Shown in pieces: positions 26,092-29,988 of a stretch of 32,144 bases of DNA. Both the position numbers and the translations under genes were made by a program. The stretch lies in IMG/VR virus record IMGVR_UViG_3300009172_000026, positions 1 to 32,144 of that record; one strand, written 5' to 3'. Under the pieces are notes generated by a model, which ran no database searches, had not been told where the DNA came from, and saw only the letters and a program-made list of their open reading frames with translations. The DNA is from a virus. Numbering within the stretch: the stretch's first letter is position 1; each line of letters begins with the position of its first letter.

Positions 26092-26793
26092 ATGGGACTA
26101 CCAAAAATTGAAATGCCGCTATTTGAGACTAAGCTGTTTTCGACTGGAAAGATTGTAAAGTTTAGACCCTTTACTGTCAAGGAAGAAAAGATACTTCTTA
26201 TCGCACAAGAGGCAAATGACGTTGACCAAACACTTTTAGCTATTCGCCAGATTATCAGCAACTGTGTGTATGACCTAGATGTTGAACAATTGCCTATGTT
26301 TGATATGGAGTATCTAATGCTTCAACTACGTGCTAAGTCCGTGAATAACGTGATCACATTTAATATCACTGATCCTGATACGCAGAAGCCAGTGGAGATT
26401 GAACTAGACCTTGATACTATCAATCTGACATTGGATGACAGGCATTCAAAAGAAATCACGATTAAAGATGATATGCACCTGATGATGCGGTATCCTCGAA
26501 TAAACGAAGTATCTCTATTTAAAGGTTATGAAGGTGACGAAGTAAATACACTGTTTAACATAATGATATCGTGTATAGACTGTGTTGTTGTCGGCGATAC
26601 AATCAGCAGAATGGAAGACTTTACTCCTCAAGAAATTCAAGATTTCGTTGAATCGTTTCCTGGCAGTGTGGTTGAAGAGCTTAAGCTGTTCTTCGAAACA
26701 GTTCCAGTTCTTCGATATGAGGCAAAGTATATCAATGCTAACGGCGACGAGAAGACTTTAGTACTGGAGGGTATGGAGACTTTTTTTATCTAG
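26092..26793 (+). CDS. 26: Baseplate hub assembly protein gp26 (unshifted product)
   Basis: A 233-residue protein matching the T4-like baseplate assembly family that includes gp26 (208 residues in T4). Typical blocks are KFRPFTVKEEKILLIAQEAND, AIRQIISNCVYDLDVEQLPMFDMEYLMLQLRAKSV and a C-terminal NGDEKTLVLEGMETFF. A strong AGGAG precedes the ATG. The frame stops at TAG 26791-26793, one codon after a run of seven T. That run is a perfect T_TTT_TTT slippery heptamer in the gene's own frame, and a 9-bp stem follows. Like the short chaperone of lambda (gpG), this product is probably the more abundant of two forms. Confidence 0.85.
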   Translation: MGLPKIEMPLFETKLFSTGKIVKFRPFTVKEEKILLIAQEANDVDQTLLAIRQIISNCVYDLDVEQLPMFDMEYLMLQLRAKSVNNVITFNITDPDTQKPVEIELDLDTINLTLDDRHSKEITIKDDMHLMMRYPRINEVSLFKGYEGDEVNTLFNIMISCIDCVVVGDTISRMEDFTPQEIQDFVESFPGSVVEELKLFFETVPVLRYEAKYINANGDEKTLVLEGMETFFI

Positions 26794-26957
26794 CGTTGAG
26801 CCATAACAGCTTAGGAGTATACTATAAGACTATATTCTCTTTGGCTCAACATCATAAATACTCTATAAGTGAACTTGAGGGTCTTATACCATACGAGCGT
26901 GATGTGTATGTTGATCTGTTGTTAGAATATTTGGATAATCAAAAATCAAATCAATAG
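26092..26957 (+). CDS. gp26 frameshift fusion (-1), probable long tail-assembly chaperone
   Basis: If ribosomes slip -1 on the seven T at 26781-26787, translation continues with TAT at 26787-26789 and runs to TAG at 26955-26957. That adds 56 residues (YLALSHNSLGVYYKTIFSLA at the start, then LIPYERDVYVDLLLEYL) to the 232 shared residues, giving 288. The added domain looks like real protein: balanced composition, amphipathic helices and no stop. It has no ATG, and only a TTG near its start without a ribosome site, so it needs the frameshift. The arrangement matches the known frameshifted tail chaperones found just upstream of tape measure genes. Whether both forms are made is inference. Confidence 0.75.
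26781..26850 (+). promoter_or_regulatory. Programmed -1 ribosomal frameshift signal
   Basis: The signal has all three standard parts. A T7 run at 26781-26787 reads T_TTT_TTT in frame. A 7-base spacer contains the in-frame TAG. A stem follows in which GTTGAGCCA (26795-26803) pairs perfectly with TGGCTCAAC (26842-26850), 9 bp with no mismatch and a 38-base loop. The stem lies within the shifted coding region, so the pairing is kept on top of coding constraint. Confidence 0.8.
26853..26860 (+). promoter_or_regulatory. Possible late promoter for the EF-hand and tape measure genes
   Basis: CATAAATA on the plus strand, one base from the late consensus, directly after the frameshift stem and about 107 bases before the next ATG. 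It is inside the shifted coding region, so it could be chance. Confidence 0.35.
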
Positions 26958-26966
26958 GAGATTAAA

Positions 26967-27290
26967 ATGGCAAAAACTTCAGAAACAAAAGACAAGTACG
27001 CCGAGTATGATGTAGACGGCGATGGCGTTGCTACTGATCATGAGTTGGGTATAAGTCAAAAAATCGTTCGTCTAGAAAACGAAGATAAGAAGCAAGACGC
27101 CCAACGTAATATGGCATGGTTTAGCCTGTCAGGTATGTTGTTGTATCCGGCGGCGGTAATTATTTCAAGTTGGATTGGTTTAGAAAGTGCGGCAAACATT
27201 CTGGGAGCCATGGCTCCGACGTACTTCGTATCTGTAGCTGGCATCGTTGCAGCATTCTATGCCAAAGAAGCTTTCAGTAAGAACGTTTAA
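26967..27290 (+). CDS. Small membrane protein with an EF-hand calcium loop
   Basis: A 107-residue protein. Residues 15-26 (DVDGDGVATDHE) form a complete canonical EF-hand loop with acidic ligands at positions 1, 3, 5 and 12 and Gly at 6. Residues 33-48 are a charged helix. Two hydrophobic segments follow, about 49-71 (AWFSLSGMLLYPAAVIISSW) and 78-99 (ILGAMAPTYFVSVAGIVAAF), so it is probably a two-pass membrane protein with the calcium loop at the N-terminus. It has a good AGGAG site and stands between the gp26 cassette and the tape measure. A holin-like role is possible, as is a role in DNA-entry channel formation; neither is shown. Confidence 0.85.
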   Translation: MAKTSETKDKYAEYDVDGDGVATDHELGISQKIVRLENEDKKQDAQRNMAWFSLSGMLLYPAAVIISSWIGLESAANILGAMAPTYFVSVAGIVAAFYAKEAFSKNV

Positions 27291-27301
27291 GGTAAAATAA
27301 G

Positions 27302-28996
27302 ATGGAAGAGAACACCCCGGTTAGTGTTGCATCAGACAATGCGCTCGTTAATAATCCTAAACTGGAGGAAGTGTTCTCGTCTATCGAAAAGCAACTTACT
27401 ATACAGACGGGTTTTCTCAAGTCAATGCAGGGCGACTTTGCCAATCAGTTTAAGTTTAATCGAGAGATGGCTAAAAAGGCTGAGAGCGCAAATAGTAGAC
27501 TGAGTGTTGCAGACGAAGACGGCGCGACACCGAATGATTTATCTGATCCTACAAACGACGAGAATAAGAAAGATTTAGCTGGCGATTACGGGATTGGTGG
27601 CCTATTAGCTACTGCTATGGGCGGTGTTGGATTAGCTGCACTTCTTGGGGCCGCATTAAAGAAGACAGTTCCGGCATTGCTTGCGCCTGTCATAGGCAGT
27701 TTTATAAACGGCGCTGTAACAGAAGCACTGACTGATATAGGTGCAACAGAAGAAACGGCCGAGGTGATCGGAGACGCCTCTATGTCGGGAGTCAAGTGGG
27801 GTATCTGGGGCACACTGCTATTCGGAAAGTGGGGAGGGGCCGCTGGACTTCTTTATGGCGTAGGATCTCATCTAGGTAACATAATGGATAAGAACCAAGA
27901 TGGCATCCTTGACGGCACTACTACGGAAATGGATCGTGAATTTTGGAATAAATGGGGCGCTGGAATTGGTGCGTCAGCAGGCGTACTTCTTATGATATTC
28001 GGTAAAAGATTGGGAGTAAAACTTCTGGCTGCCGGGAGCGCTGCGCTAGCGGCGACACTTGCAAAGATTAAGCCTCTCACCCCAGGCGCACCGACAAGTG
28101 GAGCTGCACCAAGACCTGGAGCATCAACTTTACCAAGGGGTACATTACCAAGTGGTAGTGGTGCGGCAGCGCGTGGCGCTGGAAACGTATTCAGTATAGC
28201 TACAGGTCAGCCTATGACCGTTACTGCTGTAGAAGAGGCAATGAAGAACGACCCAAGTAGGGCAACAAAATACGCAAAGTATGCTAAGTTTTTTAAGTTT
28301 GCTGGACCTGCTATGGCGGTCATTCCAGCACTGATTGGACCAGTTATGGCAATCCATAATGACGAGTCAGATGAAGAGATTAAAAAACAAATCGTTGGAG
28401 CATTAGGATCAATCGGCGGAGCATATTTAGGCGCGATAGCTGGTGCGGGAGCTGCAACAGTGATACCAGTTGTTGGTCAATCTGGTATTGGTAATATACT
28501 AGGTGGGCTTATTGGAGCTGCTGGTGGGGCATTGTCTGGCGAATTTATAGCGGAGGAGCTAGCAGATTTCCTGCTTGGCGGCCCCGATCCAAAACCCGTA
28601 GATGGTGCAGTTAATACTGGAGCATCTAGCTATGGCCAGATGAATCGACGAGCTAGACGAGCTAATCGCAGCCAGACACCCGGAGCAACTTATAACGAAA
28701 ACGGAACACTGCAAGCAAGCGCTGAAGATATTACATTTGCTCAATCTGCTATGGATGCCGCTGGTCATACGCAAGCTATAACCCCAGGAAATGCGATGAG
28801 CCAGAAGGTAGACATGATCATCACCGATTCTTTGGTGTCTAAGAAGGGTAGTGGTGGCGGAGTTAACATGAATCAGATGGGTGGTAACGTAAGTAACACC
28901 ACGAATGTTGGTGGCGCATCTACTATGGTCACCGTCATTCAAGCAAGCGGCAGCAATGCTCTGTCAAACAGTCTTCCTGTAAATATGGCGACTTGA
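27302..28996 (+). CDS. Tape measure protein candidate (gp29-like)
   Basis: A 564-residue protein, close to T4 gp29 (590 residues), placed where tape measure genes lie, after the frameshifted chaperone. Residues 1-75 are a helical N-terminus (LEEVFSSIEKQLTIQTGFLKSMQGDF). Several Gly/Ala-rich hydrophobic stretches follow (about 93-135, 160-185, 215-250 and 375-420), typical of tape measures that enter the membrane. Around residue 197 is DKNQDGILD, a calcium-loop-like motif resembling the EF-hand of its neighbour. The C-terminus is low complexity (GNVSNTTNVGG). It ends with TGA TAA TAA stops in a row. Call based on size, position and composition; I saw no decisive similarity. Confidence 0.65.
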   Translation: MEENTPVSVASDNALVNNPKLEEVFSSIEKQLTIQTGFLKSMQGDFANQFKFNREMAKKAESANSRLSVADEDGATPNDLSDPTNDENKKDLAGDYGIGGLLATAMGGVGLAALLGAALKKTVPALLAPVIGSFINGAVTEALTDIGATEETAEVIGDASMSGVKWGIWGTLLFGKWGGAAGLLYGVGSHLGNIMDKNQDGILDGTTTEMDREFWNKWGAGIGASAGVLLMIFGKRLGVKLLAAGSAALAATLAKIKPLTPGAPTSGAAPRPGASTLPRGTLPSGSGAAARGAGNVFSIATGQPMTVTAVEEAMKNDPSRATKYAKYAKFFKFAGPAMAVIPALIGPVMAIHNDESDEEIKKQIVGALGSIGGAYLGAIAGAGAATVIPVVGQSGIGNILGGLIGAAGGALSGEFIAEELADFLLGGPDPKPVDGAVNTGASSYGQMNRRARRANRSQTPGATYNENGTLQASAEDITFAQSAMDAAGHTQAITPGNAMSQKVDMIITDSLVSKKGSGGGVNMNQMGGNVSNTTNVGGASTMVTVIQASGSNALSNSLPVNMAT

Positions 28997-29049: not shown

Positions 29050-29988
29050 TTACTCTTCAGCTAAACTCTTGAAAAAGTCGAGAGAGTCATCAGAATCCCC
29101 CTCAGTTTCAAAAGATGGTGATGGAGCTACCTTAACTTCAGGAGCTTGACGCTCTTTAAATTTAGGAGTATACTCCACCCCCACACTGTTGTCCTCGGCA
29201 GCAGAGTTGCTGGGTGCGTGTGTGCTGCCATCAAGACCTAGAACCTTATACAGCTTTGCTTTCAGTTCGTTATAAGTCTTGAAGTTTTTAGGATCAACAA
29301 TGTCTGCAAGGGAATGCTCTTTAGTCCAAACTGCTTCCATCTCCTCGTCTGACAGTGCGCCAGAGCTACCAGTAATTGGAGCTGCTGAGGCAAATTCAGA
29401 TTTATCGTAGTTACGATATCCTTCAACTTGACGGATTTTAAGTTTGAAATCAGCGCCTTCCCATAGATCAAAGGGGTTTGTTGGTGCTTCATCAGCAAAC
29501 TGAGGATTCATTGTATCGTTCAGTTTGTCGAAGATTTTCTTACCAAACTTATACAAGAACACTTGACCTTCACGAGAAGGGTTCGCACTATCTTGTACAA
29601 CGTAGATATTTGCAACGTAGTTCAAGCGGCGCTTTTGCTTACGAGCAGTCTCCTTATCATCATCATGACCAGAGTTCCATAGCTTAGAGTTATACTCAGA
29701 TACTGGATCGTCTTGACCAAGAGTTGTGAGAGAGTTCTCAATGTACCAGCCACCTGGTCCTTGAAACCCGTGATCCCAATATCGCACGAAAGGCAAATCC
29801 TCGCCTGTTGGTGCGGGCAAAAAACGAATTACTGCGTAGCCATTTCCAGCTTTATCAACTTCAGGCTTCCAGAAATTAGCAGAGTCTCCATAATCTTTTT
29901 TTGAGTTACCCATAGTGGATAACTGGTCGTTCAACTGATCGAATGATGAAGAACGTGCTTTTTTTAGTGCTGCGAAAGATGATGTCAT
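29050..29988 (-). CDS. 32: Single-stranded DNA-binding protein gp32 without zinc-binding cysteines
   Basis: A 312-residue gp32 (T4: 301). The basic N-terminal LAST-like motif is KKARSSS (residues 9-15). The core has GNGYAVIRFLPAPTGEDLPFVRYWDHGFQGPGGWYIE, ARKQKRRLNYVANIYVVQD and FLYKFGKKIFDK. The C-terminal tail is acidic and ends SDDSLDFFKSLAEE, the usual docking site for replication proteins. The protein has no cysteine at all: the positions of the T4 zinc ligands read Ser86, Asp94 and Ser97, while His73 remains. From memory, cyanophage gp32 shows the same change. It lies in the T4 order dsbA-33-59-32 and has its own promoter and a repeat-rich leader. Confidence 0.93.
   Translation of the reverse strand: MTSSFAALKKARSSSFDQLNDQLSTMGNSKKDYGDSANFWKPEVDKAGNGYAVIRFLPAPTGEDLPFVRYWDHGFQGPGGWYIENSLTTLGQDDPVSEYNSKLWNSGHDDDKETARKQKRRLNYVANIYVVQDSANPSREGQVFLYKFGKKIFDKLNDTMNPQFADEAPTNPFDLWEGADFKLKIRQVEGYRNYDKSEFASAAPITGSSGALSDEEMEAVWTKEHSLADIVDPKNFKTYNELKAKLYKVLGLDGSTHAPSNSAAEDNSVGVEYTPKFKERQAPEVKVAPSPSFETEGDSDDSLDFFKSLAEE

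Follow-up and report, generated by a model that had tools for sequence, protein, structure and literature searches.

The stretch of DNA analyzed here (the window) is a 32,144-base IMG/VR virus record, in which profile searches identify T4-like gene neighbours, including a gp4-like head closure protein, a gp2-like DNA end protector, a tail tube protein, a gp48-like cap and a gp53-like wedge protein. On the plus strand, positions 26,092 to 26,793 encode a protein of 233 aa (26.9 kDa), the putative short form of a tail assembly chaperone, which by sequence is a member of the T4 gp26 family. It is matched almost over its full length by the Pfam profile PF12322, T4_baseplate (E 4.9e-51; residues 8-232 against profile positions 1-218 of 219), and by the PHROG profile phrog_150 (E 1.3e-54). 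A search of the protein against PDB sequences returned no match, and when its AlphaFold model (mean pLDDT 84.6) was used for a fold search of the PDB, the HK97 chaperone 2OB9 ranked third, with a probability of 0.54 and an E-value of 1.3, which is not significant.

The 3' end of this gene reads GGAGGGTATGGAGAC-TTTTTTT-ATC-TAG. We find, as the initial annotation had proposed, the heptamer T_TTT_TTT in zero-frame phase at 26,781-26,787, a candidate site for a -1 shift, followed after a single codon (ATC) by the zero-frame stop TAG at 26,791-26,793. Among the window's long ORFs (9,887 codons in all), heptamers of the type T_TTT_TTN occur in frame just twice; the other one is a TTTTTTG at codon 55 of 313 in the minus-strand ORF at 29,050-29,988, with no gene end nearby. 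The open -1 frame of 56 codons is likewise present, at 26,787-26,954 with a TAG at 26,955-26,957, and translation across the junction gives the annotated peptide ETFF/YLALSH. On sequence evidence this extension (26,787-26,957, plus strand, 56 aa and a stop) belongs to the gp51 family, since it is matched by phrog_634 (baseplate hub assembly catalyst, i.e. gp51) with an E-value of 9.7e-21. The predicted gp26-gp51 fusion product has 288 aa and a mass of 33.4 kDa. The claim that the extension has no start codon is correct near the junction as far as ATG and GTG are concerned; a TTG, however, occurs at 26,796, and further TTG and GTG codons lie deeper within the extension.

Two elements of the kind that classically stimulate frameshifting are present around the heptamer, namely a Shine-Dalgarno (SD)-like sequence and a downstream stem. 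The former, GGAGGG, lies inside the coding sequence at 26,766-26,771 on the plus strand, 9 nt 5' of the heptamer. The latter is a predicted RNA stem at 26,795-26,850 on the same strand, with arms at 26,795-26,803 and 26,842-26,850 and an inner hairpin within the 38-nt loop; the 7-nt spacer and the perfect 9-bp stem described previously are borne out, the arms being exact reverse complements. With a minimum free energy of -17.4 kcal/mol, the window's stem scores z -2.9 relative to dinucleotide shuffles; a search of Rfam returned no match.

Downstream of the extension, a small plus-strand ORF of 107 aa (26,967-27,290) is matched only by phrog_27150 at an E-value of 0.023; an ORF is found at the same position in Cr30, Melnitz and phiM7, and it belongs to no family. 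It is followed by an ORF of 564 aa (27,302-28,996, plus strand), the presumed tape measure and likely client of the chaperone. The 564-aa ORF sits where Cr30 has its annotated tape measure, but the small ORF separates it from the putative chaperone gene, and its match to phrog_23574 (tail length tape measure) is weak (E 2e-5). Iterated profiles gave no sequence link between this ORF and T4 gp29, and the assignment as tape measure is weakly supported.

We gathered relatives of the locus from 14 isolated or single-cell phages and 82 viral contigs. Two of the contigs were set aside, L002 as nearly identical to the window and L076 as cut off, and the window together with the 94 relatives with complete 3' ends formed a conservation set of 95 loci, with a non-redundant subset of 91. 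The expectation that relatives keep a T7 or similar heptamer is borne out in all 94 of them, so that in each of the 95 loci the gp26-like gene carries an in-phase T_TTT_TTN among its final codons, immediately 5' of the gp51 extension. Among the 91 non-redundant loci, TTTTTTC is the most frequent form (58), followed by TTTTTTT (29), TTTTTTA (3) and TTTTTTG (1), and elsewhere in their gp26-like genes the in-phase motif occurs just 7 times in 17,927 codons. Furthermore, in 91 of 91 the codon 5' of the two phenylalanines ends in T and the first phenylalanine is encoded by TTT, which goes beyond codon usage; given the residues and the codon usage, the log10 probability of this pattern is approximately -35, a value that assumes independent loci and is therefore overstated owing to shared ancestry. 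The phages carrying the in-phase heptamer include cyanobacterial phages and phages of Caulobacter, Methylophilales, Pseudomonas, Rhizobium, Sinorhizobium, Stenotrophomonas, Vibrio, Cronobacter and Aeromonas. In Vibrio phage SD25 (labelled Ackermannviridae; L099 3500-3530), the gp26-like gene ends with GTTTTTCGCTAATG, without an in-phase T_TTT_TTN but with a GTTTTT motif as in the report on Vandenendeviridae.

The zero-frame stop of the relatives lies right after the heptamer or at most eight codons beyond it. The extension has a conserved hydrophobic residue at its second position, which we considered as independent evidence but dropped: a stop that occupies the second codon 3' of the heptamer forces this residue, being one base out of phase. 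Only the 15 loci whose stop lies elsewhere therefore count, and in these the -1 frame keeps the pattern FF[RYLF][ILVF]x[LMT] while the zero frame varies. Three loci (L035, L042 and L074) have eight codons between the heptamer and the zero-frame stop, and thus a longer overlap of the two frames, with the same -1 pattern.

The stimulatory elements also extend to the relatives. In most loci, cores of GGAGG, GAGGG, AGGR or AAGG cluster 8-10 nt 5' of the heptamer, and the predicted anti-SD pairing is stronger than in synonymous recodings (Wilcoxon p-value 1e-9). The predicted fold of the 66 nt 3' of the heptamer is more stable than in synonymous recodings, with a mean z of -2.7 across the 91 loci, compared to -0.5 and -0.3 for control stretches, and a mean z of -2.2 when the extension's own codon usage is applied. 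In the 21 loci closest to the window, the positions of the stem are paired in 84% of cases, as opposed to 26-43% when the stem is slid, and the number of double-change cells is 12 compared to 4.6 in shuffles. The covarying changes are C-G to U-A in seven sequences and, in five others, A-U to either U-A or U-G; double changes are confined to two stem pairs. The pair 16-69 links synonymous leucine codons (CTG/TTG) to synonymous glutamine codons (CAG/CAA). In other lineages the hairpins differ, and this particular stem is not common to all.

Upon comparison with T4 and its relatives, a profile of the extensions matches the C-terminus of all eight T4-type gp51s, with no significant match to gp26. 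The proposed homology of the extension to T4 gp51 is thus confirmed, with one refinement: T4 gp51 does not consist of the extension alone, but of a complete gp26 paralogue to which the extension is joined. Its gp26-like domain is related by profile-profile comparison both to T4-type gp26 (E 5e-23) and to the window's gp26 family (E 7e-14), which at the sequence level establishes gp26 and gp51 of T4 as paralogues. An unrooted tree separates the frameshift genes from T4-type gp26 and gp51 (support 96/86), with the gp51s forming one group (100/99) and the gp26 group being less clear (66/21). By homology, T4 gp26 corresponds to the short form and T4 gp51 to the long form with its extension; in T4 these are two separate, divergently transcribed genes, whereas the window has one gene with a frameshift site. 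The two genes are also divergent in 44RR and others, and they lie in tandem and in one direction in Slopekvirus Miro and RB43 (L100 2940-4234, L101 4001-5294). No T_TTT_TTN is found in T4 at the gp26 end or at the gp51 junction. The simplest reading is probably a single duplication in the T4 lineage, in which one copy (gp26) would have stayed short, the other (gp51) would carry the extension in frame, and the slippery site would have been lost, with the direction of these events inferred, the tree being unrooted.

Wrong or absent annotation of gp51 is a recurrent error in T4-like genomes. The GenBank entries of Syn19, Melnitz and LG08 annotate the extension too short, with a start well within the conserved domain, and in Cronobacter LPCS28 and Aeromonas Asswx_1 it is unannotated although the frame is present. 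These extensions lie at L016 3711-3875 and L017 3708-3876, and also in L006, L007 and L014.

We consider a programmed -1 frameshift near the end of gene 26, yielding a longer gp26-gp51 chaperone, to be the correct reading of this locus with a probability of roughly 0.9, in support of what the initial annotation had suggested; it is favoured by the phase of the heptamer, the gp51 identity of the extension, the SD-like element, the covarying stem and the loci that lack a start codon. Most ribosomes would end at the TAG at 26,791 and produce the 233-aa gp26. For a minority, the SD-like GGAGGG to the rear and the stem in front would slow translation, and these ribosomes would slip one base back on T_TTT_TTT and continue in the -1 frame to give the 288-aa fusion. 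Both the occurrence and the efficiency of the shift we infer from these sequence signals.

It is very unlikely that the extension is instead made generally as a separate small gp51, by termination and re-initiation near the gp26 stop, with the T run a by-product of the two phenylalanines. An ATG overlaps or closely trails the stop in 43 of the 91 loci, a further 9 have only GTG or TTG near it, the window has the TTG at 26,796, and Cr30, phiM9, Moby and phi-ST2 carry annotations of this type. However, in 39 of the 91 loci the -1 frame contains no ATG, GTG or TTG between the heptamer and a point 12 nt beyond the stop, and its first start codon is found 8-32 codons inside the conserved extension, so that re-initiation is not the general route. 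It also leaves unaccounted for the invariant T at the end of the codon before the phenylalanines and the invariant TTT, the -1 pattern kept from the heptamer onward even where the stop lies further downstream, and the fusion of the extension to a gp26-like domain in T4-type gp51. Given the 43 loci with a nearby ATG, re-initiation may nonetheless yield additional, free gp51 in some phages.

T runs can cause transcriptional slippage, and the run here is seven long, so that RNA polymerase could add or drop a U and produce the fusion in one frame. This explanation is more improbable still, as 58 of the 91 loci have TTTTTTC only, the codon phase of T_TTT_TTN is invariant although transcriptional slippage would not need it, and the SD-like and stem elements are of the kind expected to act on ribosomes. 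The T7 homopolymer could also have been misread in sequencing or assembly, splitting one gene in two; this is already refuted by the relatives, since the same arrangement is found in more than 90 other loci, isolated phages included, and the T7 recurs in a second contig that differs from the window at only 4 of 10,699 bases.

The programmed frameshift would give a short and a long form from one gene, a sequence architecture that fits the lambda G/GT type. By analogy, gp26 and gp26-gp51 look like the lambda short and long tail assembly chaperones gpG and gpGT, in which a short and a -1 frameshifted long protein are likewise encoded shortly before the tape measure gene, an arrangement that is conserved across a wide range of long-tailed phages according to a review (PMC5009743) of Levin et al. 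1993 and Xu et al. 2004. The putative chaperone role is based on position, on the two-form architecture and on the T4 literature, where both gp26 and gp51 appear among the hub assembly chaperones (PMC3004832). As in lambda, the gp26 part would form a coat around the tape measure, and partners from the tail tube or the baseplate hub would be recruited by the few copies that carry the gp51 tail. The window differs from lambda in that its signal consists of T_TTT_TTN, an SD-like element and a stem, its short protein is larger (233 aa), and gp26 has no detectable sequence similarity to gpG, a comparison of lambda gpG with the gp26 alignment giving no match.

The tie of a T4 baseplate factor to the lambda G/GT mechanism, as originally claimed, is supported but not new. 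Vladimirov, Gautam & Davidson 2022 (Virology 566:9-15), known here second-hand, are credited with identifying the chaperone genes of T4-like phages and with the two-gene arrangement of T4; PRFect (PMC10885494) cites them for short and fused long gene copies, and PMC12846349 for slippery poly-T sequences in the TAC-N genes of T4-like phages. A literature search on frameshifting in cyanophage or T4 gp26/gp51 returned no direct description. The Vandenendeviridae and Andersonviridae (PMC12846349) similarly have a conserved -1 frameshift with a poly-T motif in the chaperone gene before the tape measure, but their motif is GTTTTT and they are another phage group. The concept is therefore known, and the window is a new, well supported case of it. 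What is added here is a broad conservation test, the three-part signal and the wrong gp51 starts in databases, many gp51 entries having a wrong start or lacking the gene; the rule holds across many T4-like lineages, T4 itself has both forms as duplicated genes, and gp51 gains a testable role.

The E. coli dnaX gene carries an SD-like sequence approximately 10 nt upstream, the heptamer A_AAA_AAG and a downstream stem-loop, and frameshifting there makes the shorter product. The window shares the three-part arrangement of the signal, but with T_TTT_TTN as the heptamer and a longer product. It is likely that the ancestral chaperone of the T4 superfamily used such a dnaX-style three-part signal, which would have been lost once, at the duplication in the T4 lineage that fixed gp51, making T4 the exception and the RB43-like tandem of gp51 and gp26 possibly an intermediate.
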